From assembly GCA_016841265.1 (NCBI GenBank), contig JAENZL010000001.1:102603-160768 (forward strand): 58,166 bases of DNA, in the 5' to 3' direction. The notes under the pieces were generated by a model. It ran no database searches, was not told where the DNA came from, and saw only the letters and a program-made list of their open reading frames with translations. Below, piece by piece: positions 3,751 through 56,521 of the stretch (its first letter is position 1; each line of letters opens with the position of its first letter). Source of the DNA: Methanobacteriota archaeon. GTDB taxonomy: Archaea; Halobacteriota; Methanosarcinia; Methanosarcinales; Methanosarcinaceae. A program made the translations under genes and the position numbers.

Positions 3751-4086
3751 ATTTAGTATTTAATATGTTAGCCTGTATTATAACTATTGGAATTGTTCCG
3801 GCCAAGAAGTGTGTCGTGAAAGTTTAGAAGTGGAGAGACTTTGTTCAGGGAATCCGTTAAAGCATCCGTTTTAAAATATTCTGACCAGTTTCCGGTCCAA
3901 ACTTCCCGGAAATCATATAAGTTTGATTATTTTTCGTTAAGGAATTGGTCTGCAAAGCCATCAGTCATTTCAATGAGAGTGTCTCTTTTTTGTTTGACCA
4001 GTTCTCGATAGCTCGTGCCCAGCGTTCTCCATAAAAATTGACTGAAATAACCTGAAAAGCCGCATAAAAAACGTTACATCAAGCTT
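3751..4086. other. Intergenic, promoter side of MetE-like pair
   Basis: AT-rich stretch between the MetE-like pair and the toxin gene. It must hold the promoter of the leftward pair. I see no repeat, RNA or coding signal. Confidence 0.4.
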
Positions 4087-4338
4087 TCATTTGTAAATTT
4101 CCCTTCGGTGCCCGACTTTAAGTACGAGTATCACCAGAATGCTGCCCTGAATCTCCAGAACCACCCTGTAGTCACCTACTCTCAGCCGGTAATTTGGAGA
4201 CCCAACAAGTTTTGTCACATAACGGTAAGGATCTTCCTGAAGCTCCGAAACTTTACGGAAAATTCGTTTTGCTAGCTGACGGTCCAGTTTTCTAAGCTGC
4301 TCTGCCGCAGGTTCGGACCAGATGATTTGAAAACGCAT
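4087..4338 (-). CDS. RelE/ParE-family toxin
   Basis: This 83-residue basic protein begins MRFQIIWSEPAAEQLRKLD and has the RelE pattern: strand, two helices (AAEQLRKLDRQLAKRIFRKVSEL), then strands ending with YRLRVGDYRVVLEIQ and LVLKVGHRREIYK. RelE proteins cleave mRNA in the ribosome. The conserved RVGDYRV and the C-terminal GHRREIY are typical of archaeal and bacterial members. I chose the ATG at 4338 over an in-frame TTG at 4362 because it has GGGG a few bases upstream and starts at the family's first strand. It begins 13 bases after the antitoxin stop codon, so the two are translated from one message. Confidence 0.88.
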   Translation of the reverse strand: MRFQIIWSEPAAEQLRKLDRQLAKRIFRKVSELQEDPYRYVTKLVGSPNYRLRVGDYRVVLEIQGSILVILVLKVGHRREIYK

Positions 4339-4351
4339 CAGAACCCCATTC

Positions 4352-4576
4352 TCAGAATCCAAGTTCTTCTTTCAGTTTTTCGTGCGTTATGTACCTGCCT
4401 TCTTCAACCGCTTTTCGGGCAAGTTCGATTTCTTTTTTTGTCTCTTCGTTCAGTTCCTGGACCTCTTCTATCAGCCTTTCCAGGACGTCATTGTAGGTTT
4501 CCCGTTTGTAGATTTTCATGCGTTCCAGAACTTCTTTCGTGCTCTGTTTAACCTGGATGGTCGTCGTTTCAGCCAT
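4352..4576 (-). CDS. Antitoxin of the RelE pair
   Basis: This 74-residue acidic protein begins MAETTTIQVKQSTKEVLERM. The N-terminal strand TTTIQVK followed by two helices fits a ribbon-helix-helix or related DNA-binding arm, and the rest is a charged helix (EEVQELNEETKKEIELARKA) that would wrap the toxin. Antitoxins of this layout normally repress their own operon. The start codon lies only about 27 bases from a TATAAG-containing palindrome and no ribosome site precedes it, which suggests a leaderless or near-leaderless transcript. The toxin gene follows directly. Confidence 0.82.
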   Translation of the reverse strand: MAETTTIQVKQSTKEVLERMKIYKRETYNDVLERLIEEVQELNEETKKEIELARKAVEEGRYITHEKLKEELGF

Positions 4577-4601
4577 ATTTAGTTTTATGCAAGGTTTTTA
4601 C

Positions 4602-4627
4602 TTATAAGTTGCTATAGCTGCTTATAA
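4602..4627 (-). promoter_or_regulatory. Nested palindrome over the toxin/antitoxin promoter
   Basis: TTATAAG and CTTATAA are inverted copies placed 2 bases either side of a perfect GCTATAGC palindrome; only the two-base spacers break the symmetry. The left arm contains the likely TATA box, 26-32 bases before the antitoxin start. This is the expected place and form for an autoregulatory operator. Confidence 0.6.
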
Positions 4628-4676
4628 CAAATTATAGCTGGAAAAGGAATAAGGCAATTTAAGATTGATTGGAGAT

Positions 4677-4770
4677 CTTATCCAAAGCTACCAAAATGCC
4701 GCACTTAACCGTTTTTGTCCCGTTCGCTTGCGAACGGTCTTTCCCACGCCAAAAACTAAAATGAAAAAAG
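4677..4770 (+). repeat. Dispersed hairpin element, copy 1
   Basis: A perfect 8-bp stem CCGTTCGC / GCGAACGG with TT loop lies at 4720-4737. It is preceded by a conserved ACCAAAATGCC..CCGTTTTTG block and followed by CTTTCCC and an A-rich tail. It aligns over about 80 bases with copy 2 at 7384 and, inverted, with copy 3 at 11151. It sits just 3' of the last of the three recombinase-like genes. Confidence 0.8.
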
Positions 4771-4829
4771 AGGATACCGACATACCGGAAAACAAAATTT
4801 GCAGCTTACACACGAAACCTGACAAACGA

Positions 4830-5579
4830 TCAATACTCAGAAAGCGGATACACACCCGTGCTCCCACTGATCCTCCACACATCCCCTTGCTTTCCTATCC
4901 TGAGCACAACCGTCCAGCCAACCCTGGACATGGAACTGATTTCTCCGGAGACGAAAACAGGCCCTATAAGTTCCCCTGAACCCAGAAAATCCTCAAGCCA
5001 TAATTTTCCGGGCTCGATTTTTTTGATGGTGAAGCGGCTGTTCAGCTCTTCCGTGTACTTCCCGCGCGGAGACTTGGTGGCATACTCTGACATCAGCTTG
5101 CTCACTTCCATTGTTGCCGGGAGATCGGCCTTGAGCTCGTTTACACGCTCGTTTGTTTTCTCATACACTTCATCGGCCATGTAACCCTTCTCATGCATCC
5201 ATTGCACCAGCTTGTGCATGACCCTGCCCACAACTTTCAGGAAGTTTTTGCTGGTTGCCGCGTTCAGGATGACGTATTCACCGAGGAAGCTCTCTATTTC
5301 CCTGAACCCTATGTGCCCGGGGCCGAAGATTTCACAGTACTCAGTGCCTCCCTCTTCATAAAGTTCCTCGAACAGTTCCCGATCTTCCTCTGTCAGGCCC
5401 TCCTCTTCCAGACGCTCCATGCCGTAAAAGTCGAGGAAACGCTCAAAATATCTCATCGCAGTTTCATATCCGGAATAGGACTGAGGCTTAAGGTTTTGTT
5501 TTTGCTCGGCCAGGAATTCCTCTAGAATTTGCTTTATTTTCGGCTCACTTTCCGAAGAATTTTCAGATTTACAGGTCAT
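4830..5579 (-). CDS. Recombinase N-terminal-domain-like protein, paralog A
   Basis: This 249-residue protein is of an uncharacterised family; three tandem copies lie in this window. Residues 13-50 (IKQILEEFLAEQKQNLKPQ then SYSGYETAMRYFERFLDFYG) and about 95-145 (IESFLGEYVIL to VQWMHEKGYM) resemble the two halves of the core-binding domain of tyrosine recombinases, separated by an acidic insert. The C-terminal 80 residues do not contain the catalytic Arg/His/Tyr domain. They carry a conserved module: KIEPGKLWLEDF, IGPVFVSGEISS, VGW, then a Trp-Arg-Ile strand. The ATG at 5579 was chosen because GGAGGT lies five bases upstream; a TTG at 5603 is open but unneeded. No function is claimed. Confidence 0.78.
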   Translation of the reverse strand: MTCKSENSSESEPKIKQILEEFLAEQKQNLKPQSYSGYETAMRYFERFLDFYGMERLEEEGLTEEDRELFEELYEEGGTEYCEIFGPGHIGFREIESFLGEYVILNAATSKNFLKVVGRVMHKLVQWMHEKGYMADEVYEKTNERVNELKADLPATMEVSKLMSEYATKSPRGKYTEELNSRFTIKKIEPGKLWLEDFLGSGELIGPVFVSGEISSMSRVGWTVVLRIGKQGDVWRISGSTGVYPLSEY

Positions 5580-5647
5580 ATTACCTCCATTTCCACTGCC
5601 CAAGATCCTTTATTTACTGTATCTGTTGTGAACTATAAAAACTTCAA

Positions 5648-6358
5648 TCACATAGGATAAATAAACCCGGCCTGCTGAATCCTCCACCCCTTTTCGGTCT
5701 TCAAAAGCCGGAGCGAAATCCTCCAGCCCACCTTGCACCCGGAACTGGCCTCCCTGGGAACAGGAACCGGCCCAATACAGTGCATGGGAGTCGGATAGCC
5801 CTTGAGCCACAACTTCCCGGGTTCAATTTTTGCGATTTCGAAAAAATCCCCGATATCCTTTGTATAAGGGACCTTGACCGGATGGGCCTCCGCGTAATCA
5901 TAGATCAGATCAGACACTCCTATGACCTTCGGTAGATCGGCCTTAAGCTGCTTTACAAGCGGTTCAGCATATTCATACCCTTCATCCATCATGTAGCCAC
6001 TTTCGTGCAACCATTTAAACAGTTTGTACGTGACCCGGCCAACAGACTCCATGACAGTCCTGATGCCTGCAATTCTCCGAACCATGAATTCTGCAAGAAA
6101 ATCGGATATTTCCGTGAAGGTGAGATGTTCAGACCCAAAAATATCACAGAACTCCCTGTCTTCATTAAGGTTAAGATCTTCGTAGCGTTTTTCTTCTTCG
6201 CTACTCAAAAAATGATAGGCATACTCATTGAGGTACATCTTGAGATAATCGACTGTATCCACATATTCGGAATATGTTCTGGACTTGAGACGGTTTCGAT
6301 GTTCACCCAAAAACTCCTCTAAAATTTCCTGAATTGTTTTTGCAGATTCGGTTTTCAT
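5648..6358 (-). CDS. Recombinase N-terminal-domain-like protein, paralog B
   Basis: This 236-residue protein is the middle member of the tandem triplet. It opens MKTESAKTIQEILEEFLG and continues with RLKSRTYSEYVDTVDYL, the integrase-like first helix pair. FCDIFGSEHLTFTEISDFL and VTYKLFKWLHESGYM correspond to the second half. The C-terminal module is conserved (AKIEPGKLWLKGY, IGPVPVPREASS, KVGWRISLRL, WRIQQAGFIYP). A good ribosome site GGGAG lies just before the ATG. The tyrosine-recombinase catalytic residues are absent. It is probably co-transcribed with its flanking paralogs, spacing 68 and 89 bases. Confidence 0.78.
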   Translation of the reverse strand: MKTESAKTIQEILEEFLGEHRNRLKSRTYSEYVDTVDYLKMYLNEYAYHFLSSEEEKRYEDLNLNEDREFCDIFGSEHLTFTEISDFLAEFMVRRIAGIRTVMESVGRVTYKLFKWLHESGYMMDEGYEYAEPLVKQLKADLPKVIGVSDLIYDYAEAHPVKVPYTKDIGDFFEIAKIEPGKLWLKGYPTPMHCIGPVPVPREASSGCKVGWRISLRLLKTEKGWRIQQAGFIYPM

Positions 6359-6447
6359 ACACTCCCTCTTTCGGTTCTTTCCGTTCTCCCTTTTCCCTCG
6401 AATATCTGAAGGGCAGCGTTCAACAATTCAGAAAGGACACGAACTTT

Positions 6448-7161
6448 TCAGTAAGGACAGCGCGAAAAAACCTTTTCGACATAAGTTATCTGCCAGAAAT
6501 CCCCGGTTTTTACTATTCCGAAATTAAGGTACCAGCCTACCTTTGCCAGCGAACTTGCCTCTTCCGAAACAATGACAGGCCCGATTTCCCTGTGAGGGTC
6601 CAGGTAATCCTCCACCCACAGCTTTCCGGGTTCAATCCTCATGATCTCGAAGTCTCCTGCTTTCCAGTCGGGATTCTCTTCGACCGGATGTGCATCCACA
6701 TAATCGCAGAGCTCAAGCCCGAATTCCCGGACCTGGGAAGTAGCTTTTTTCTTCTTTTCCCTGATACCCCCTACAACTTTGGCAAGTTCACTGTAATGGT
6801 CAGGCTCAACGTAAGCTTTTTCATGAGCCCAGGGCAGGAATTTACGGAAAAAACGCCTGGAAGTTTCAACAAAAGTTGCACTCGCTCCAAAATCGTTAAT
6901 CAGATAGTCCTCAAGGAGGTATTCAATATCATAAGCTGAGATGTAAGCAAGGTCAAAAATCTGGCAGTATTCTTTGTGCTCGTTCTTCTGCTTCTCTTCA
7001 TAGAGAATCTTATCTTCTTCATATAGCTCGTCAGGGACACAATCATCCAGATACTCCTCGAAAAGCGAGATTAAATTTTCATAATCCCGACAGGTCCGGG
7101 GACTCCTGCTGCGCCTCTGCTCTGTTAAAAATTCCTGGAAAGCTTCTTTTATCGTCTTCAT
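6448..7161 (-). CDS. Recombinase N-terminal-domain-like protein, paralog C
   Basis: This 237-residue protein is the first gene of the triplet in transcription order. It starts MKTIKEAFQEFLTEQRRSR followed by SPRTCRDYENLISLFEEYL, the best match of the three to a recombinase core-binding start. The middle has YCQIFDLAYISAYDIEYLL and RRFFRKFLPWAHEKAYV. The C-terminal module again has RIEPGKLWVEDY, IGPVIVSEEASS, KVGW and WQITYVEKVF. It is the most diverged copy. No transposase or catalytic recombinase gene is nearby. The family is unrecognised beyond these motifs. Confidence 0.78.
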   Translation of the reverse strand: MKTIKEAFQEFLTEQRRSRSPRTCRDYENLISLFEEYLDDCVPDELYEEDKILYEEKQKNEHKEYCQIFDLAYISAYDIEYLLEDYLINDFGASATFVETSRRFFRKFLPWAHEKAYVEPDHYSELAKVVGGIREKKKKATSQVREFGLELCDYVDAHPVEENPDWKAGDFEIMRIEPGKLWVEDYLDPHREIGPVIVSEEASSLAKVGWYLNFGIVKTGDFWQITYVEKVFSRCPY

Positions 7162-7383
7162 GGCATCTCTAAAGGGTTATCGTCTTTTCTGCTTTTTCAG
7201 GGTTTGGATGATTTTGGAAGTTTCGGGCCTTTCAGCCATCGCAAGAACAACAGGAACGCCTTTTTGAAACTTCCGGCCAGCTTTTTACCAACAAACCTGC
7301 AAGCCTATCTATAAACTTTAAACTGCCCTTTGTTTCGAGTGGAACTTCAAGCCAACACTGCGTTGACAGATTGCTTTTTGATC

Positions 7384-7490
7384 TTTACCGGAACAACCAG
7401 AATGGCGTATCTGGCCGTTTTTGCCTCCGTTCACTTGTGAACGGCCTTTCCCGATATAAAACAAAAAGAGTTAAAATAAAAAAAGAATAA
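7384..7490 (+). repeat. Dispersed hairpin element, copy 2
   Basis: The stem CCGTTCAC / GTGAACGG with TT loop is at 7427-7444. Against copy 1 the stem differs by one base on each arm, and the two changes restore pairing (G-C to A-T). The upstream block ACCAGAATGGCG..GCCGTTTTTG and the downstream CCTTTCCC plus A-rich tail also match copy 1. It lies just 5' of paralog C. Confidence 0.82.
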
Positions 7491-7542
7491 AATTTTCTGG
7501 CATCTAAACAGATAAGCTTTATTGGTATATATTTTGATAAAA

Positions 7543-7550
7543 TTTATAAA
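7543..7550 (+). promoter_or_regulatory. TATA box of the 7600 gene
   Basis: TTTATAAA lies 50 bases before the chosen ATG, with a purine-rich ribosome site (GGTGGG) in between. Spacing fits an archaeal promoter with a short leader. Confidence 0.5.
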
Positions 7551-7599
7551 CTTTAAAAGTGTTTGTTATAGAAATTGTCAGCGAGCATAGGTGGGAACC

Positions 7600-8196
7600 A
7601 TGGAATTATTTAGCAAAGAAATTTACACTCTTGTAATCCCTATTAAACCCGAAAAAGATCAGCCTAACGGATATTTCCCGGGTCCTTGCGTTGGAAGTTA
7701 TGAGGCACATAAAGAATATCTTGACAACAAAGGCAAAGTTTTCTGGTCATGGCATTTAAGAAATGCCGGGATAAAGAAAAATATAAAAAAAAAAGTTCCT
7801 GATTTGACCAAAAAGCTCGGCTCTTTTCAAGAAATAAATGGGAAAATGGTAAAAATAAATGACCATGGTCTCTTCTATTCATCTGAAGACAAATCAATTA
7901 GATGGAAATTCAGAGCAAGCACAATAAAAGCAACGGATGAAATCAAGAAGAAAGAAATCAAATACATACCAGAATTCCGAAAAGTCCACCTTGGTCCCAA
8001 TTCTACAAATTCCTGGCTCCTAATCGAAGAATTGGAAGAGATGGATGAGCCTGTAAAAGGAAAAAAGATCCGAAACTCAAATGCATACAAATTCCCAGAG
8101 CTTTACTTCTACAGCAATCCAAATAATGCAAAGGAAGTATTCAACACAAACCACCTGACTTCCGGAAACGCATTCTTAATCGAAGAGTGCCTTTAA
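7600..8196 (+). CDS. Unrecognised protein beside type I restriction locus
   Basis: This 198-residue soluble protein begins MELFSKEIYTLVIPIKPEKD. It contains GKVFWSWHLRNAGIKK, HGLFYSSEDKSIRWKFRAS and NSWLLIEELEEMDEP. The order of an early Trp-rich strand, a central strand-turn segment and a late W-LLIEELEE strand recalls PUA-like barrels (EVE, ASCH, YTH relatives), several of which read modified bases. This similarity is weak and by eye only. Start: the ATG at 7600 has GGTGGG directly upstream; a GTG three codons earlier is possible. It converges on hsdM with 22 bases between the stop codons, so it may belong to the restriction island. No confident function. Confidence 0.7.
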   Translation: MELFSKEIYTLVIPIKPEKDQPNGYFPGPCVGSYEAHKEYLDNKGKVFWSWHLRNAGIKKNIKKKVPDLTKKLGSFQEINGKMVKINDHGLFYSSEDKSIRWKFRASTIKATDEIKKKEIKYIPEFRKVHLGPNSTNSWLLIEELEEMDEPVKGKKIRNSNAYKFPELYFYSNPNNAKEVFNTNHLTSGNAFLIEECL

Positions 8197-8218
8197 AAGT
8201 TGAATTTGGATTTACTTT

Positions 8219-9772
8219 TCAGGAAATCTCCTTCAACTTCTGCAATCCTTCATTGATCTTAACCTGCGCTTCTTCGATGATCTTAATAAGCTCTTCAGGC
8301 TTCGGAATCACTTTCTCCTTGATATTGGGATTGACAGCCTTGATGTCATAATTATTCTTTTTGACCTTATCAATTTCCACAAACCAGCTCTTCTCACTGA
8401 TTTTATCCTCTTCTTCGTCAGAGTGCAGCCTGTTCAGGAAATCATCAAACTTATTGAGGGTCATGGGGCTCTTCTTCAGCACCTTGATGTCCGACATATC
8501 ATAGTACCAGATCTTCTCGGTAGGCTTTCCTTTGGTGAAAAAGAGCAGGTTCGTCTTAACACCCGCCCCTGCGTTTAGGAAGACATTTTGGGGCAGGCTC
8601 AAGATACACCAGAGGTTACATTCGTCCAGCAGTTTCCTCTTGGTCTGCCCGAAAGCCGTTTCATTTGTCCTGAAGAGCACGCCTTCATCTATGACCATAG
8701 CACAGGTGCCGCCTTCCTTCAGGTGGTCGATGATATGCTGCAGGAAAAGGATCTGGGTGTTTCCTGTCTTGTATGTGAAGTTGACCTTTGCATCGTCCCC
8801 TTCCCTCCCGCCAAAAGGAGGATTCGTGAAGATATAATCGAAACTCTGCGGAGCCCCTTCGAAAAGGTCCATGTAGGTGGGCCTGCCGGAAAGCGTATTC
8901 TTAAGCCCGATATGTGGGTAATCGATCCCATGCAGGACAAGGTTTGCAAGCGAAATGGGAAATGCCGTGTCGCTGTTGTCAAGCCCCCAGAAAGCATCAT
9001 GCTTCAGGTGCTCGACCTCAGTTGCAAGCCTTGTCCCGGAAAGTCCGGGGTTCATGAAATAAGTGTAATTTTCCGCCAGGAAACCGCCTGTACCGCAGCA
9101 GGGATCGTAAAAGGTTTTCATTTCCCCTCCCTTCCCGCTGATTTCCGGCTTAACCGCCCGGATCATTGCCCTTATGACTTCCCTCGGCGTAAAGAACTGC
9201 CCACCGTCATTGTTTTTCTCACCCATTTTCAGGAGCAGCCCTTCGTAGATCTGGGAAAGCGGGAATTGGTGGGTCTCATCGATATTTTCGGCACTGAGCT
9301 TATCAACTTTATCAAGCACATCAAGCAAGTTTTTTTCACTTGCAAGCTTCGTCTGGCTCAGGTTCCTGAAAATCTGTGAAATTATTTTCTGCCTGACCGT
9401 AGCATCCGGTTTATCTTCAAAACCCTTAAGGTAGGGAATAAGCTCTCCGTTCACGAAATTCAGGAAGGCGTCCACCTCCCCTTTCTGGAGCTCGGCTCTT
9501 TTCTCCCCTTTCGGACTCCCCCAGTCCCTCCACCTGTAAGGCTCTTCAAGCGAAGGCACAAACGTTTTCCCGAAAAACGGATACATCTCCGCCTCTTCAA
9601 CCTCCTTCTCCTCCAGAATCCTCAAAAACATCATCCAGGTGAGTTCAGGGATATACTCAAGTGCCCCCTTGGTCCTGTCCCTGCGCATGATGTCACAGAC
9701 CGACTTGATGTAAGAATTCATGCTGGACTGGCCGTTTACTGCTTTGCCATTGTTTTTCTTTGCCATGCTCAT
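8219..9772 (-). CDS. hsdM: Type I restriction-modification DNA methyltransferase subunit HsdM
   Basis: This 517-residue protein carries the N6-adenine methyltransferase signature. Motif I is FYDPCCGTGGFLAE (about 221-234) for S-adenosylmethionine and the catalytic NPPF is at 317-320. The N-terminal all-helical domain (YIKSVCDIMRRDRTKGALEY and on) is the HsdM_N type, and NNDGGQFFTPREVI precedes motif I as in the family. Two HsdM with one HsdS form the methylase. The gene overlaps the end of hsdS by four bases (ATGA), so they are translationally coupled. All motifs are intact. Confidence 0.95.
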   Translation of the reverse strand: MSMAKKNNGKAVNGQSSMNSYIKSVCDIMRRDRTKGALEYIPELTWMMFLRILEEKEVEEAEMYPFFGKTFVPSLEEPYRWRDWGSPKGEKRAELQKGEVDAFLNFVNGELIPYLKGFEDKPDATVRQKIISQIFRNLSQTKLASEKNLLDVLDKVDKLSAENIDETHQFPLSQIYEGLLLKMGEKNNDGGQFFTPREVIRAMIRAVKPEISGKGGEMKTFYDPCCGTGGFLAENYTYFMNPGLSGTRLATEVEHLKHDAFWGLDNSDTAFPISLANLVLHGIDYPHIGLKNTLSGRPTYMDLFEGAPQSFDYIFTNPPFGGREGDDAKVNFTYKTGNTQILFLQHIIDHLKEGGTCAMVIDEGVLFRTNETAFGQTKRKLLDECNLWCILSLPQNVFLNAGAGVKTNLLFFTKGKPTEKIWYYDMSDIKVLKKSPMTLNKFDDFLNRLHSDEEEDKISEKSWFVEIDKVKKNNYDIKAVNPNIKEKVIPKPEELIKIIEEAQVKINEGLQKLKEIS

Positions 9773-11016
9773 GCCCCATCTGGAATTTCGTATTTGCCAA
9801 AAACTTCGTTAAGGAAGGAGTTTGGAAGCTGGTTTATTGCTTCAAGCTGAATGTTCATATAATCTAATAATTCCTGAGTGAATTTCTTTTTTTGATCCAT
9901 CTGACTTACTAATTGCTCCTGAACCTCAATTGGTGGGATTGGAACTTCAAAATTTTGAATCTGTGATTTCGTTAGAGCCTGCCTGGTCGCTCCAGATTCA
10001 GAATCCATTATGAACTTTTGAAAATTAGGATTTGAAATATAGTAGGATAGATATTTAGAGTTTAATTTATCCGTTGCCCGAATAATGCTTACATGCTGAT
10101 TAACATTGGCTGGACATATTTCATCAGGAACCACACACACCCTGCCTATTGAAGCCCCTGTAATATTGAGTAAAACATCTCCTTTTTGTACTCTGGTATT
10201 TTTCATGGATTCATCAATTTCCGGAGAAATATGAGCCAAACCATCAGTTTTGAACTCATTTAAATGAACATTCATGCTTCTTATGAAAGGTATCCCCTCA
10301 TTTTGATAAACAGACTGCCCACCTTTAGGGGTTGACCCACTACCAACTTTTGTTGTAAGATGGATAAATTTCATTTGTTGATATTTTTTAAATGCATCAG
10401 CTGAAAATTTTTCTTTCAAATATGCATCGAATAAATCTCTGGCATCTTCCATGTAGCTTTCAGCTTCTTTTTTCATCACCTCAATTTGAGCCATCTGCCT
10501 GTCAAGTTTTGAGACGATTTTTTCTTGTTCTGGAATTGGAGGAACAATTATTGGATAGTTTTCAAGAAATGTTTTAGGAACACGCTGTTGCCCGACTGCG
10601 CCTGTGAAGTTTTTTTGAGCTTCATCAACGAAACGCTGATTTCTCACGAAATAATAGATCCATTTGAGGATTACTCTTTCTTTACACCTCAAAACATGGA
10701 ATTCAGTCGTCCCGAAACCGAAACCATTGATTAAACCATTTGCAATTGCACTTTTCTTATTCTGCATGCAGGGAGTGATTTTGGCAAACAGAACATCATT
10801 TTCTTCGAAATAAGTGTAGCCCTTTTTTATATTTGAAAAAGGAGAGACTTTCATATCAAGTATTATCCCCAGATCTCCATCCACGCTTTCCATTGGAACA
10901 AAAGAAGTATCCTGGGCATCTTCAGCTTCCAATTTACCTGGTCTACGTGGGTTAATTTCGCAAACCTGTCCTAAAGTGCTCCATTCCCAACCATCAGGCA
11001 ATTCGTTTTTACTCAT
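9769..11016 (-). CDS. hsdS: Type I restriction specificity subunit HsdS
   Basis: This 415-residue protein has two target recognition domains. The first opens LPDGWEWSTLGQVCEINP and ends with FLENYPIIVPPIPEQEKIV. The second runs from KFIHLTTKVGSGSTPKGG to FEVPIPPIEVQEQLV. Each is followed by a conserved helix (SKLDRQMAQIEVMKKEA and SQMDQKKKFTQELLDYM) that spaces the two half sites and binds HsdM. The protein defines the bipartite DNA target of the complex; the target cannot be read from sequence. It overlaps hsdM by four bases. Full length, no frameshift seen. Confidence 0.94.
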   Translation of the reverse strand: MSKNELPDGWEWSTLGQVCEINPRRPGKLEAEDAQDTSFVPMESVDGDLGIILDMKVSPFSNIKKGYTYFEENDVLFAKITPCMQNKKSAIANGLINGFGFGTTEFHVLRCKERVILKWIYYFVRNQRFVDEAQKNFTGAVGQQRVPKTFLENYPIIVPPIPEQEKIVSKLDRQMAQIEVMKKEAESYMEDARDLFDAYLKEKFSADAFKKYQQMKFIHLTTKVGSGSTPKGGQSVYQNEGIPFIRSMNVHLNEFKTDGLAHISPEIDESMKNTRVQKGDVLLNITGASIGRVCVVPDEICPANVNQHVSIIRATDKLNSKYLSYYISNPNFQKFIMDSESGATRQALTKSQIQNFEVPIPPIEVQEQLVSQMDQKKKFTQELLDYMNIQLEAINQLPNSFLNEVFGKYEIPDGA

Positions 11017-11232
11017 TTATAACAACTTCTTAACAATTTTGTACGTTCAAAAATCTGGTTATTCTTGTTCCTGCTCTTATATTATTGAATCGATATTTTT
11101 CCGGCCAGATCAAGCACAGAAGTTCATTTTTCAGTTTTAAATTAATAACAGCACTAACCGCTCGCACGCGAGCGGAAACAAAAACAGTAAAAGACACCAT
11201 TCCAGTTATTCCGGAAACATCTAAGCAATAGC
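11017..11232. other. hsdR-hsdS gap with inverted hairpin element
   Basis: The 216-base gap in the middle of the restriction operon holds copy 3 of the hairpin element. A 68-codon minus-strand frame across the gap is just read-through of the element and the AT-rich flank and is not called. Confidence 0.6.
11151..11214 (-). repeat. Dispersed hairpin element, copy 3 (inverted)
   Basis: The stem CCGCTCGC / GCGAGCGG is at 11158-11175, a perfect 8-bp pair with a two-base loop. Read on the minus strand it is preceded by CCGGAATAACTGGAATGG and a GTTTTTG block, matching copy 2. One further stem position has changed on both arms (T-A to C-G) relative to copies 1 and 2. Confidence 0.75.
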
Positions 11233-13584
11233 TCAAACCGCAAGCAGGCCCATTTTAACCTCGGTCAGCAAATCCTCTACATCCATACCGACTTTTCCTA
11301 GAGCCTCGGTCCCGCCAGCTTTTTTGATTTCAGGGACATAGAAAATCATGCGAGTTTCAAGTTCTTGAATACCGTTTTCTTTAAACTGGTTGGCGACGGC
11401 TTTGATGACTTCAGAGGAATCGGAGGGGAGGGACAGGAGCCAGGTTTCGTTTTTGTAGGCAAAGTCGGAGGCACGCTGTTCGCGGGTTTTGGCGGGGACA
11501 CCGAAGCCGATTTCGGCAAAGAGGTCAAAGAGGTCGCATTCTTTCAGGTCCAGGAGGTCGCGGAGGAGGAGAGCGCCGCTTTCTCCGCCGGGGAGGGCTG
11601 AGATGAGGTGTTTCCGGTCATCGGGATGGACCCACATTTCACGGAGGAGGTTGAGGTTTTCGACCTGTTCCATCAGGGAGGCTGCGAGTTTTTCTTTGTA
11701 TTCTTCGAGGGGGACGAGGCGATCTCTGCCTGTGGCGTCATCCCGCATGAGGATGAACTTGCCTTCGTCTCTGATTTCGATTTCGTAGCCGTGGACTTTT
11801 GCTATTTTGCGCTTTTTTCCTTCTTCTTTCGGGGTTGAGGGTTCGTGCCGGGGGGATGAGATGAACTCCTCGCCGAAGAGGTCGCTTGCATTCGTGTAAT
11901 CGTAAATCCTGAACATGTACTTGTCGAAAGTTTCATCAATCCGGGTTCCCCGGCCTACCATCTGGTAGAATGAGATGGGGGAGGTCACGTAGTTGAAAAA
12001 GACGATATTCTGGATGCAGGGGATATCCACGCCTGTTGTCAGGAGGTCAACGGTTGTTGCAATAAAGTGGGAATTCTTGTTCCCGCTCATGTTTGCGATG
12101 AGGGTTTCCTGGTTTTCCCCGAGGATACCGCAAGCGATTCCTTTCTGGGTGCATTTAAAGGCGAACTTCTCACATTCCGGATATCCTCTTTCAATGTAGA
12201 GGTTGTTAAGTTCGTTTGTGACATCTTCGGCGTGTTTGTCGTTTACGCAGAAAATGATAGTTTTCTGCTTTGGGCCTCCGGTTTTTTCGAACTGGTCGAA
12301 GAGGTCGGAGCACATGGCTTTCCTTCGGTCGGGGAGGATGAGTTCCTTTTCAAAATCAGTCCTTACGTAAGCGTCTTTTACATCCCCGTAAATCAGGGTC
12401 TTTCCGGTCTTCGCTTCATAAATTCCCTTTTTCACAAGTTCGTCCCTGCCAAGCAAACTATCGTCAATGCTGACGTGCCGCTTTACGATCTCGCAGGCAG
12501 CAAGATAGCCGTCTTCCCAGCCTTTGGCATAGGGGTATTCGTAAACGGGCTCCCCGAAATACTTAACGTTGTTGCGGGTGATCTCTTCGTCCCTGTCCTT
12601 ACCAACAGTCGCCGCTCCTTTTATTTTGCGGGGGGTTGCGGTAAGGCCGATCTGGACAGCATCGGGGTTGTTTGTGAGCACAAGGCTCCACTTATCCCAG
12701 GCGCTCCTGTGGCACTCATCGATAATAATGTGGCTGAAGTAGTTCTTCGGGTAGTTTTGCAGGAAAAAAGACTGGTCTCCGTCTTCGTCAATGCCAAGAG
12801 CCTGATATGTGGAAACAATAACCCTTGCATTGGTCTGCGGGTTTTTGTTCTCAACAATTGCAACGTTGTCCCCGAAAGCTGAAAACATCCGACCATAGCC
12901 CTGGGTTTTAAGCTGGTTCCGGTCGCAGACGAATAAAGCCTTACTTAAATGACCTGTTTTGGCGAGTTTTTCCAGAAGCTGAACTGCAATTCTGGTTTTT
13001 CCGGAACCGGTAGCAAGGGAAAGCAAGACCCTGTTCCACTTTTCTTTTTTCGAAGCGATCTTTTCAAGGACAGACCTGATTGCAGCGTCCTGGTAATACC
13101 TGCGCTCCGACTGGCCGCCGCTATAGGGTACAAAAAGAGGTTTAGCTACTTCTGAATCAAGGGCAAAGCCTTTTTTCTCCTCATAGAGCTTCCTGAGAGT
13201 TTCAGGCTTCGGGAATTTTTCAAGAACCATGTCTTCATTGACAGTGCCCTCAAAAGAATCATACTCAGCGAATAGGTGCCCGTTACTTGAAAACACAAAA
13301 GGAACATTTAGATATTTGGCATACTCTTTTGCCTGCTCCAATCCCAGGGTTTCATGTTCATCTTCCTTTTTTGCCTCGAGGACTGCGACAGGTAAGGGAT
13401 TTCCACCTTCACCCGGCAGGCACAAAAGGTAATCTGCCTTTCCCCGCCTTCGTTTGGTCCTCCCACTGATGATTTCAATGGTACCCGCAGTAACTTCCCT
13501 TCTGATCAGGTCCTCAGTCCAGCCAAGGGTATGGATGACGGGATCAATCAGTTTAGCCCTGGTATCTGCTTCGTTATGCCCCAT
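11233..13584 (-). CDS. hsdR: Type I restriction endonuclease subunit HsdR
   Basis: This 783-residue protein has a PD-(D/E)XK nuclease N-terminus (Asp51, then Glu70-Ala-Lys72 in VAVLEAKK) followed by a superfamily 2 helicase motor. Motif I is LATGSGKT (190-197), motif II DECH (289-292), motif III GLTATPR (313-319) and motif VI QMVGRGTR. It translocates DNA and cuts away from the recognition site. The C-terminal part is the helical HsdR_C-like region. It is shorter than the about 1000-residue enzymes of the EcoR124 type but within the range of this subfamily. It is the first gene of the operon, 216 bases ahead of hsdS. Confidence 0.95.
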   Translation of the reverse strand: MGHNEADTRAKLIDPVIHTLGWTEDLIRREVTAGTIEIISGRTKRRRGKADYLLCLPGEGGNPLPVAVLEAKKEDEHETLGLEQAKEYAKYLNVPFVFSSNGHLFAEYDSFEGTVNEDMVLEKFPKPETLRKLYEEKKGFALDSEVAKPLFVPYSGGQSERRYYQDAAIRSVLEKIASKKEKWNRVLLSLATGSGKTRIAVQLLEKLAKTGHLSKALFVCDRNQLKTQGYGRMFSAFGDNVAIVENKNPQTNARVIVSTYQALGIDEDGDQSFFLQNYPKNYFSHIIIDECHRSAWDKWSLVLTNNPDAVQIGLTATPRKIKGAATVGKDRDEEITRNNVKYFGEPVYEYPYAKGWEDGYLAACEIVKRHVSIDDSLLGRDELVKKGIYEAKTGKTLIYGDVKDAYVRTDFEKELILPDRRKAMCSDLFDQFEKTGGPKQKTIIFCVNDKHAEDVTNELNNLYIERGYPECEKFAFKCTQKGIACGILGENQETLIANMSGNKNSHFIATTVDLLTTGVDIPCIQNIVFFNYVTSPISFYQMVGRGTRIDETFDKYMFRIYDYTNASDLFGEEFISSPRHEPSTPKEEGKKRKIAKVHGYEIEIRDEGKFILMRDDATGRDRLVPLEEYKEKLAASLMEQVENLNLLREMWVHPDDRKHLISALPGGESGALLLRDLLDLKECDLFDLFAEIGFGVPAKTREQRASDFAYKNETWLLSLPSDSSEVIKAVANQFKENGIQELETRMIFYVPEIKKAGGTEALGKVGMDVEDLLTEVKMGLLAV

Positions 13585-14004
13585 TTTGAATCAGATTCTT
13601 TTACAGTTTTCAATGATATTTAAAGTTGACAACTAATTACACTCCACATATTTTAATATATTTCGAATATAATCAAAAAAGAGTGTTGATTATCAGGTTT
13701 GCAATGAAGGACAAACAAAATATTTGCCTACTATTCTTGCTCTAATTTTTAAATCACTGTCATGCAAAGGCCGGCTGCCTTCGGTGCCCGGTGAGAGCCC
13801 CTTTTTCTGAAAATCCAGCCGAAAAAAGGTACCCTGGAGTGAAAAGAGAGAAAATGAACCAAAAAAACAGGGTACAAAAATAAGAAAGAAAGCCAAAAGA
13901 AAAGGAAATTGAGAGAGGAATTGTCCTCTCGATCTGATTTTCTCTTTTTTAACACCGATTCTTCAAACAGATTTCTTCACACCGGTTTTTTCAAACCGCT
14001 TTCT
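13585..14004. other. Intergenic region hsdR-argS
   Basis: This holds the promoter side of hsdR (AT-rich around 13630-13680) and the 3' end of argS. About 13950-14004 has diffuse repeats built on TTCTTCACACCG and TTCAAACCG. Nothing else is seen. Confidence 0.45.
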
Positions 14005-28410: not shown

Positions 28411-28597
28411 AGATACCGTTTTTAAAGATACCGTTTTTAAAGATACCGTTTTTAAAGATACCGTTTTTAAAGATACCGTTTTTTAAGACACCGTTTTTTA
28501 AGACACCGTTTTTTAAGAATCGTTTTTTAAGAATCGTTTTTAAAGAACCGTTTTTAAAGAACCGTTTTTAAAGAACCGTTTTTAAGACACCGTTTTT
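28411..28597. repeat. 15-bp minisatellite, about 12 copies
   Basis: The unit AGATACCGTTTTTAA repeats with drift to AGACACCGTTTTTTA and AGAACCGTTTTTAA. It is one of the largest tandem arrays in the window and lies in a gene-free region downstream of the TPR gene. Confidence 0.9.
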
Positions 28598-30491: not shown

Positions 30492-30660
30492 AAAATAATA
30501 ATTGAGTTATATTTTGATAGTGAGCTTTTCTGAACTTGTTTTCGAGTGGAAATGGAGGGGTTGAAAACTTTTTAGCTAAGCTGCCTATTTACTCATTTTA
30601 TATTTTAACCTTTCGGGCTGCAGGCAAATTGCGGTAAATTTAATCCCTGATAACTTAAGT

Positions 30661-30786
30661 GAAAAAAAATGAAAAGAAATGAAAAGAAATGAAAAGAAAT
30701 GAAAAAAAATGAAAAAAAATGAAAAAAAATGAAAAAAAATGAAAAAAAATGAAAAGAAATGAAAAGAAATGAAAAGAAGTGAAAAA
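30661..30786. repeat. 10-bp minisatellite
   Basis: GAAAARAAAT repeats about 12 times and stops just before the stop codon of the minus-strand gene at 30793. Read on the minus strand it is a T-rich tract and may double as a terminator. Confidence 0.9.
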
Positions 30787-30792
30787 AGCTGA

Positions 30793-47437: not shown

Positions 47438-47474
47438 CGTGAACTACCCCTCCATGACTCCTTCGGAGTTAAAA
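47438..47474 (+). repeat. ACTACCC motif with small hairpin after cheD
   Basis: CGTGAACTACCC, identical to the block after the signal peptidase gene, is followed by a short stem ACTCC-TTC-GGAGT (47457-47469) and then TAAAAAG. It may be a decayed IS200/IS605-type end or a terminator. Confidence 0.45.
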
Positions 47475-48196
47475 AGCTAACTTATAACCGGTTATTAGCA
47501 CTACTTCTTTACACCACTTCTTTACACCACTTTCTTACTCCACTTTCTTACTCCACTTTCTTACACCACTTTCTTACACCACTTTCTTACACCACTTCTT
47601 TACACCACTTCTTTACACCACTTCTTTACACCACTTCTTTACACCACTTCTTTACACAACTTCTTTACACAACTTCTTTACACAACTTCCTAACACACAT
47701 CACTGAATGGGATTACCAGAATATTTTTACAATTTAGTCCAATGCCCCCAATATTTGTTGGAAGTTTGATTCAGATCCAGTTCTCTGATAAATTATATAT
47801 TTGATATAAATATTATAATTGACATTAATAATACGAGTAGTATTATAAAGTTTAGAATGTACTGCATAAAACGGATTTGGTTGCAATTAAAACCGCAAAT
47901 AATGGGAGAATTTGCAGAGAACTCGCAGATGAACTGCAAATGAACTGCAAAAGATTAAATCTCCATGCGGCTGTGTTCAGGATACTGGCAGGCTGGTAGG
48001 CAGCATCAGACAGTGACAAACAGTGGCGGATAGTGTTGAACAGTACATGCCCTGCTATATCGGCACATGCGATATTATATGTACAGTAAGATATGTACAG
48101 TAAAGAATATCCCAATACAGCAATAGCAACCGAATAACAGTAAAAACAACAACAAAATAACATAAACCTACCGAAAAAAAAGAGCAAGGGATTTAT
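47475..48196. other. Repeat-rich region upstream of ftr
   Basis: After the 13-bp minisatellite comes an AT-rich stretch with a TATA-like ATTATATATT at about 47792-47801 and GATATTATATG at about 48069-48079, and repeats of ACAGTAA-like words. Either box could drive ftr. AAGGGAT lies just before the ftr start. Confidence 0.45.
47502..47690. repeat. 13-bp minisatellite, about 14 copies
   Basis: ACTTCTTTACACC and ACTTTCTTACACC units run without spacers. The array lies between the che operon and ftr. Confidence 0.92.
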
Positions 48197-51423: not shown

Positions 51424-51742
51424 TATCAGTCTCTCTGTTGCGGCGGCCCAAAAAATCGAAAAATTTTTCTGAACTCTGAAACCGCTTCGTTTAAAGATTT
51501 AAAGATCTGGAGTATGGTAATTACCTGCCAGCAATTTATAATTTTTTGCACCTTGAAGTTTTTTCTAGAATATTGAACAGTAAAAACTCATTTGTAAGAA
51601 CCTGGCCAGTTATAGACCCTATAATAACTACATCCTGTAAGAACTCATTTGTAAAAACTCATTTGTAAAAACTCATTTGTAAGAACTCATTTGTAAGAAC
51701 TCATTTGTAAGAACTCATTTGTAAGAACTCATTTGTAAGAAC
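51424..51742. other. TraB promoter region and minisatellite
   Basis: The right part, next to TraB, is AT-rich and should hold its promoter. The left part is a minisatellite that runs up to the stop codon of the M50 protease gene, whose flank reads AAGAACTTACTCACTC, as if derived from the repeat. Confidence 0.5.
51638..51742. repeat. 14-bp minisatellite, about 7.5 copies
   Basis: GTAAGAACTCATTT units (some GTAAAAACTCATTT) run to the 3' end of the M50 protease gene. A single outlying copy is at about 51581-51600. Confidence 0.92.
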
Positions 51743-52837
51743 TTACTCACTCATTAACTTCAGGGTCCGCACAAGATCTGTTCTGGAAAGGATTCCAACC
51801 AGATTCCCGTTATCAATGACAAGGAGCCTTCCGATATTCCGACTTGAAACCAGCTTCAGAGCATCGCTTGCATAGGCATCGGAGGTTATGGATATAATTT
51901 CTTTAGTCATTACGTCCGAGACAAGAAGCACGGGCCGCTCGAGTATGGGAACCCTCTGGACATCGGTAAAGCTCACTACTCCTTTCAGGATACCGCCTTC
52001 CATGACAGGGTAACCCATGTGTTTATTTTCAAACATGAAGTGGACCAGGTCTTCAACACTCATTGAGGGATGAACCGAGACCACAGCCCGGGTCATTATA
52101 TCCCGGATAAATATGTCTTCGAGGGTCACCGAAGCCTGGGTTGACCGTTCTTCTTCCGATGCCCCGACATAGATAAAAAGGGCTATCAGGGGGAACCAGA
52201 GGTTGCCAACCAGGATGCCGAAAATAGCCATCAGGATTGCAAAGAATTTCCCGACAGCTGCCGCACTCTGGGTAGCCTTTACGTACGACATTTTCCTGGC
52301 ATAAAGAGCCCGAAGCACCCTGCCTCCGTCCATGGGAAAAGCAGGCAGGAGGTTAAAGACTCCAAGCACCACATTCATTGCCCCGAGGATCCAGATGGTA
52401 AGGAAAACGGGGTTTGCCGCAAGCGCCGAGTTAGGAGATATGAAGGTTCCGTAAACGAAAAGACAAACAAAACCTATCACCAGGCTCGTTAAAGGCCCTG
52501 CAAACGCCATCTTGGCTTCCTGCGAAGGTACCCTTGGCATCTCTTCCATCGACGAAACGCCCCCGAAAAGGAAGAGCGTAATGCTGTCGATATTGACCCC
52601 GTACCGCATCGCCAGGTAGGAGTGCGCAAGTTCATGCAGAAGAATGGACACAAAGAGCAAGATGGCTGTCAGTGTAGAGAGCACATATCTGGTCAGCGGA
52701 GGCTCAACCCCCGAAAACCCGAAAGGCTGCGGATTGATCGCAAAAACGTACGCAAAAACGGGCAATATCAGGAGAAAGGTAACGTGTAGCTTGATTGGTA
52801 TGCCCATTACGCTTCCGATTTTAAATGAAGATTGCAT
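51743..52837 (-). CDS. Site-2-protease-like M50 metallopeptidase with CBS domains
   Basis: This 364-residue intramembrane zinc protease has HELAH at 68-72 in ILLHELAHSYLAMRYG, and the third ligand in NLLPAFPMDGGRVLRALYA. About six membrane segments make up the first 220 residues. Two CBS motifs follow (IMTRAVVSVHPSMSVEDLVH to GVVSFTDVQRV, and VMTKEIISITSDAYASDALK to GILSRTDLVRTLK), which sense adenine nucleotides in many proteins. It probably cleaves a membrane-bound regulator; no candidate substrate is adjacent. Confidence 0.93.
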   Translation of the reverse strand: MQSSFKIGSVMGIPIKLHVTFLLILPVFAYVFAINPQPFGFSGVEPPLTRYVLSTLTAILLFVSILLHELAHSYLAMRYGVNIDSITLFLFGGVSSMEEMPRVPSQEAKMAFAGPLTSLVIGFVCLFVYGTFISPNSALAANPVFLTIWILGAMNVVLGVFNLLPAFPMDGGRVLRALYARKMSYVKATQSAAAVGKFFAILMAIFGILVGNLWFPLIALFIYVGASEEERSTQASVTLEDIFIRDIMTRAVVSVHPSMSVEDLVHFMFENKHMGYPVMEGGILKGVVSFTDVQRVPILERPVLLVSDVMTKEIISITSDAYASDALKLVSSRNIGRLLVIDNGNLVGILSRTDLVRTLKLMSE

Positions 52838-53475: not shown

Positions 53476-53603
53476 GAAAGTCTTCTTGCAAGTGATTATG
53501 GATAGAGAATTTCAAACTTGTTAACAAAAATCCTTTATATTATATTTGAATCATTCCTTAATAGACATTCAAAGCTAGATCAGCATCATTTCGATACATA
53601 ATA

Positions 53604-53733
53604 TACTCAAATCCCCATGTACTACTCAAATCCCCATGTACTACTCAAATCCCCATGTACTACTCAAATCCCCATGTACTACTCAAATCCCCATGTACTA
53701 CTCAAATCCCCATGTACTACTCAAATCCCCATG
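53604..53733. repeat. 19-bp minisatellite, about 7 copies
   Basis: ACTCAAATCCCCATGTACT repeats almost perfectly without spacers, about 100 bases beyond the mfnA stop. The very low divergence suggests recent expansion. Confidence 0.93.
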
Positions 53734-53834
53734 TTATCACTTTGATAATAATCCTATAGATATTTACTGTGCATAAACTAAAGTCCAAAAACCAGTTAAC
53801 TCAGAGAAAGGCTCTTTCAAAGTTAAGGCTCTTT

Positions 53835-55869: not shown

Positions 55870-56045
55870 AGAAATCTCAGAAATCTCAGAAATCTCAGAA
55901 ATCTCAGAAATAGAGTAGACAATAGAGTAGACAATAGAGTAGACAATAGAGTAGACAATAGAGTAGACAATAGAATAGACAATAGAATAGACAATGGAAT
56001 AGACAATAGAATAGACAATGGAATAGACAATGGAATAGACAATAT
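55870..56045. repeat. 9-bp and 12-bp minisatellites
   Basis: AGAAATCTC is repeated about four times and followed by about eleven copies of AATAGAGTAGAC drifting to AATGGAATAGAC. Open reading frames on both strands here are only the repeat translated (NRVDNRVDN and the like). Confidence 0.92.
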
Positions 56046-56521
56046 AATCAAAAAAATCCTTAGGAATTATTCAAAAAAAATATTTCCAGATCCTCTCTTA
56101 TTAATTTATTAATTTATTAATTTCCACCGATATAAATAAATTTTTAATTTAAGTTAATGAACCGAAAAATCTTAACTAATCAAAACTCAAAGCTCTGCAT
56201 GTCTTGGGGACCCTCAGATAAATTTGTTGCAAACATTGTGTTCTTGAGATACATAAAATGTATAATAAAAAGTGAGAGTTAAAACCGATAAAAAACCAGG
56301 AGATAAACTGAAAACTAGGAGAATCCAGGTTGAAAAAAGTTATAAAAATGATCTATCAGTTCATTTCTCCCTGGTTCCATCTTATTTCAGGAAGATTATG
56401 CTGATAGATCAAATTTGCCGTTTTTTTATTTTTTGTTTTCTTTCTATTTTCGTTTTTCAGATAATTGAATATTTATGCTTCGGGGTTCGATATCTTCTTT
56501 TGTGATCTTTGACCAGGTGGT

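Follow-up and report, generated by a model that had tools for sequence, protein, structure and literature searches.

A previously undescribed family of short, tagged palindromic repeats in Methanosarcina-like archaea

Within a 58,166-nucleotide stretch of a Methanosarcinaceae genome (termed here the window), a short hairpin recurs three times, with differences in one arm of the stem matched by differences in the other. What kind of element is this, and does the preserved pairing reflect selection on a structure formed in RNA or in single-stranded DNA? The three perfect 8-bp stems described by the first-pass annotation are found exactly where it had placed them, and the pattern that captures them (CCGYTCRCNTGYGARCGG) matches at these three hairpins only and never in 100 dinucleotide shuffles. 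Their features, together with the genes of a surrounding insertion, are as follows, where R1 denotes a covariance model introduced below.

4695..4719, plus strand: body of copy 1 (subtype IV), from a diverged box A (AATGCC) through GTTTTTG (4711-4717)
4720..4737, plus strand: copy 1 hairpin, CCGTTCGC-TT-GCGAACGG (R1 match 4714-4746, 41.6 bits)
4738..4745, plus strand: copy 1 tag, TCTTTCCC, with an A-rich tail after it (from the tag profile)
7388..7405, plus strand: copy 2 box A, CCGGAACAACCAGAATGG
7417..7423, plus strand: copy 2 GTTTTTG block, 5' of the hairpin
7427..7444, plus strand: copy 2 hairpin, CCGTTCAC-TT-GTGAACGG (R1 match 7421-7453, 41.3 bits)
7445..7452, plus strand: copy 2 tag, CCTTTCCC (from the tag profile)
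8219-9772: hsdM
9769-11016: hsdS
11150..11157, minus strand: decayed tag position of copy 3, TTAGTGCT (from alignment with the other copies)
11158..11175, minus strand: copy 3 hairpin, inverted, CCGCTCGC-GT-GCGAGCGG (R1 match 11149-11181, 27.0 bits)
11179..11185, minus strand: copy 3 GTTTTTG block
11197..11214, minus strand: copy 3 box A, CCGGAATAACTGGAATGG
11233-13584: hsdR

The stems differ at two pair positions, and both differences are mirrored on the opposite arm, as had been claimed: copies 1 and 2 have T-A at pair 4 where copy 3 has C-G, and at pair 7 copy 2, with A-T, departs from the G-C of the other two. Copy 3 is indeed inverted. Among the flanking blocks reported as shared, GTTTTTG occurs in all three copies and CTTTCCC in copies 1 and 2 (it has decayed in copy 3), but AATGG is confined to copies 2 and 3, with AATGCC in its place in copy 1. 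The body of copy 1 is conserved in two relatives (G001 and G003) and can be aligned with copies 2 and 3; the box A of copy 2 is also present at four other sampled loci (L007, L015, L020 and L024). By themselves, two covarying pairs among three paralogs are weak evidence of structure; it is the wider family that makes the covariation strong.

A type I restriction-modification insertion (approximately 7271-13709) contains copies 2 and 3 but not copy 1; three sister genomes lack the insertion and have a short intergenic region instead. This island also carries a small gene whose Pua-like match is weak. Between copies 1 and 2 (4830-7161) are three tandem minus-strand genes of 257, 236 and 237 aa that look like diverged duplicates, the third of which matches a phage-integrase SAM-like domain weakly, at a score below the Pfam cut-off. 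The window also encodes a tRNA-Lys (anticodon ctt; 689-763) and has an unusual abundance of short tandem repeats whose units are 10-19 bases long (e.g., 28411-28590, 30657-30792, 47461-47733, 51622-51757, 53585-53755 and 55873-56084, among others).

A scan of the genome with the strict pattern returns only the three window hairpins. A similarity search within the genus, however, revealed diverged relatives. Scanning this genome and its relatives with R1, a covariance model of 34 positions, a check proposed beforehand, found many further copies, so that the initial count of three was a large underestimate: at E<=1 there are at least 105, 130, 79 and 119 matches (the last in G003) in the four genomes of the genus. 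Among 61 genomes of the family searched at E<=0.001, every genome of the window's own genus has 39-87 matches, three other genera have up to 20, a fourth has one and the rest have none. Across the phylum, at E<=1e-4, 4 of 148 genomes match, all belonging either to the same genus or to a sister genus, g8, whose members carry the same subtypes at low copy. A search of named genomes with box A (CCGGAACAACCGGAATGG) returned 25 records, two of them in the MAG Euryarchaeota archaeon BL5_bin.6; the others are scattered and look like chance. Rfam 15 yields no gathering matches in eight loci, and within positions 4000-12000 of the window its matches up to E=5 all fall far below gathering scores, so that the scan turned up no relative among Rfam families. 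Literature searches found no paper that describes these hairpins, and the one survey found to cover archaea does not extend to Methanosarcina (PMC12306157). The hairpins belong to a family not described before, short palindromic repeats of which each genome of these Methanosarcina-like methane-making archaea has about 100.

The loci sampled for comparison are stretches around R1 matches and are therefore biased toward well-matching hairpins. Each unit consists of a perfect stem of 7-9 bp (mostly 8-9 bp), a two- or three-base loop, a 3' tag, an A-rich tail and a variable 5' body. The tag, as aligned over 108 non-redundant copies, reads GCYTTTCC on the 3' side of the stem (on the opposite strand, GGAAARGC on the 5' side), and its TTTCC is nearly invariant despite differing stems and bodies; the A-rich stretch occupies positions 9-40 after the stem. 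About six subtypes of body can be distinguished, of which the window copies represent subtype IV. Subtype I has some 50 conserved bases with the 3' end CAGGTACCGGCRYTCTCA, and the body of subtype III runs to some 200 bases, its 5' end occupied by a second hairpin; a long-range helix GGCCGC/GCGGCC is possible in subtype III, though the two segments are nearly invariant and covariation therefore lends it little support. Some elements are adjoined by further kinds of repeated hairpin module, for example GCCCGAGTTCCGCTTCGGGAGCACGG (downstream in L063, L064 and L145), and several repeat families seem to be interspersed as a mosaic in the intergenic regions.

Within 109 non-redundant copies there are 35 distinct 5' arms, and only 16 of 896 stem pairs depart from Watson-Crick pairing, G.T and A.C each accounting for one of the 16. 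The loops are most often GAA (35 of 109) or TT (26 of 109) and are strand-asymmetric, with 71 of the TT or GNA type versus 2 of the reverse-complement equivalents. The two strands cannot be told apart by their predicted folding energy, and the loop bias therefore comes either from a factor outside the energy model or from the shared ancestry of the subtypes.

Orthologous loci allow constraint on the stem to be viewed in place. The copy 1 hairpin is identical in two of three relatives, the third having lost its left arm. Neither of the two outcomes named beforehand as refuting a selected structure, a lack of further genomic copies and a stem that is not conserved at orthologous loci, was thus observed. 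More broadly, the fetched loci form 47 orthologous groups, and in 66 ortholog comparisons (which favour conserved stems, because the loci were picked by R1 matches) site differences amount to 2.9% in stems, 5.3% in tags, 13.8% in loops, 13.9% upstream and 19.1% downstream. Once a few paralog-mixed groups had been split by hand or omitted, 21 changed pairs remained: both bases had changed in 9, one base had changed without loss of pairing in 7, and 5 were broken; 16 thus still pair. These patterns support a stem structure under constraint. The earlier view that covariation marks a selected structure accordingly stands as regards constraint, inasmuch as stems vary less than flanks and changed pairs mostly still pair; the covariation calls for caution, for it partly reflects exchange among about 35 stock arm sequences. 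Both kinds of change occur: L091 differs from L014 by a point-wise compensated change, and some orthologous copies differ by a swap of the whole stem tip (GTC-GAA-GAC versus AGC-TT-GCT in L085 and L088 relative to their relatives), both tips being common elsewhere in the family.

Whole-locus DNA searches at three loci (starting from copies in G000 that were R1 hits) found relatives that lack the unit or have a different module in its place, from which it follows that copies are gained and lost. No clean insertion with target duplication was seen at orthologous loci, where intergenic DNA diverges too fast for junctions to be defined. Of 106 checks on neighbouring units, which are not independent of one another, 78 found the unit shared between orthologous loci. 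Species have at least 47 groups of copies in common, and hence current mobility is low.

The explanation that we favour, albeit with reserve, is that these units are archaeal REP/BIME-like extragenic palindromes, spread in trans by a putative enzyme acting on single-stranded DNA. The hairpin and tag would be recognised as single-stranded DNA by a putative endonuclease or transposase; such an enzyme would have spread the units, and copies would persist mainly where promoters stay undisturbed. Long residence in tolerated sites would follow, during which some copies may come to double as 3'-end RNA hairpins of the upstream gene. Counting for the REP-like reading are the copy number, the tag, the extragenic placement (none of the 109 copies falls within a predicted gene, gene positions here being those of a simple gene caller written for the purpose), the tag-facing pairs, the gain and loss, and the preserved pairing. 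Pairs of copies no more than 700 nt apart comprise 27 inward (tag to tag), 1 outward and 7 in the same direction, orthologous pairs being counted more than once. What counts against the spread of such palindromes is that no clean insertion was seen, that current mobility is low, and that stems are constrained in place, which could reflect host use instead of selfish spread. No mobilising enzyme was found. A Y1 (IS200/RAYT) transposase was sought as the partner but did not turn up: PF01797 is absent from G003 despite the at least 119 R1 matches there, and Y1 genes in other genomes yielded no convincing element, the sole model match at a Y1 locus being a weak one of 14.1 bits. More tentatively, and as something possible rather than probable, the units may form a new class of archaeal palindromes with its own tag and a putative non-Y1 single-strand DNA enzyme, partly recruited as gene-end structures.

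As to which nucleic acid forms the hairpin, the commonest loop, C-GAA-G, is that of GCGAAGC, an unusually stable DNA mini-hairpin (PMC4686876). Near-absence of G.T pairs (1 in 896) is unlike a typical RNA helix. Together these two features lean toward single-stranded DNA over RNA, though CTTG loops are good in RNA too.

The main rival, possible for part of the copies, is a role in 3'-UTR RNA. It assigns to the stem-loop and the CUUUUCC after it the stabilisation or termination of the upstream transcript, and it reads inward pairs as the two ends of converging transcripts; as an account of the family we consider this unlikely, but several observations speak for it. Where the body-side gene was called, it runs toward the element in 53 cases and away in 26 (n=79; binomial p 0.003), that is, toward it twice as often, with the stop codon often 120-230 nt from the matched hairpin stretch; the orientation bias of the tag-side gene is not significant. 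Divergent intergenic regions are the rarest location (5 of 109), and the stem is constrained at orthologous sites. In Haloferax, moreover, hairpins occur upstream of termination sites, and one terminated transcription in vivo (PMC7237163). Yet in about a third of the called cases (26 of 79) the body-side gene runs away from the element, inward pairs are found in tandem as well as convergent gene regions, and G.U pairs, which RNA helices tolerate, are nearly absent. Nor does the resemblance to archaeal terminators and 3'-UTR hairpins (a GC-rich stem and then a short T run, 3' of many genes) extend far: archaeal terminators are T stretches (PMC7237163), whereas the units have no U-tract other than the three or four T within the tag, an A-rich stretch following at positions 9-40, and over positions 9-50 after the stem 85 of 108 copies have no T run longer than 3; and, unlike terminators, they occur in both orientations relative to genes and have a long conserved body. 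Since the T tract is missing and orientation is mixed, a simple terminator is rejected as the sole explanation.

It is quite improbable that mutation alone made the stems perfect, through template switching or gene conversion between copies that repairs imperfect palindromes and changes both arms together. The whole-tip replacements in L085 and L088, which use tips common in the family, and the small number of distinct 5' arms (just 35) speak for such a process; template switching alone, however, leaves unexplained the fixed tag, the biased loops and the fact that tag and stem diverge less than the loop between orthologs, and the point-wise compensated change in L091 argues against it. Least plausible is a double-stranded DNA site for a protein that organises the chromosome or acts on supercoiling (gyrase has been proposed in such a role at bacterial REPs), for although strictly extragenic palindromes at about 100 copies per genome would suit it, 35 arms in which only pairing is kept suit a sequence-specific duplex binder ill, and the loops are strand-asymmetric.

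How, then, do these putative REP-like palindromes compare with known systems? Like GTAG REPs, REPINs and BIMEs, they are short, high-copy, extragenic palindromes, tagged at one foot by a constant sequence, with pairing-preserving stem variants and a predominance of inverted doublets, such as are described for bacterial REPs and REPINs, and are rare between divergent genes (PMC3733652, PMC3116915). They differ in their archaeal host, in lacking a linked Y1 transposase, in doublet spacing (90-549 nt versus mostly 20-100 bp in the bacterial repeats) and in the rarity of G.T stem pairs, which are often seen in bacterial REPs (PMC3733652). The foot of the palindrome carries GCYTTTCC / GGAAARGC rather than GTAG, and because the GTAG tag and the link to a RAYT (Y1) are both missing, the units are classified as a separate REP-like family and not as a known REP. 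CGTC-tagged REPs (RPE/dRS3 type) are likewise tagged palindromes, found mainly as inverted dimers, with 8-9 bp stems and no dedicated transposase (PMC3733652); here, though, the CGTC tag is lacking in the 108 aligned copies, the loops are of 2-3 nt rather than 4-5, and there are long conserved 5' bodies. As in IS200/IS605-derived elements, a hairpin with recognition bases flanking it on one strand would suit single-strand transposition; unlike those elements, the units lie at the ends of no Y1 gene, and G003 has no Y1 at all.

So far, the definition of REP-type repeats has come mainly from bacteria and has linked them to RAYT transposases. An archaeal family that is well populated, has another tag and lacks such a transposase offers a clean system in which to study how palindromes originate and are maintained, and its orthologous loci provide a ready set for telling selection from copying. 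If these units do form a separate archaeal class, REP-like systems would have arisen outside the RAYT lineage. For the methanogens themselves, the family bears on how intergenic regions and the 3' ends of genes are to be read.
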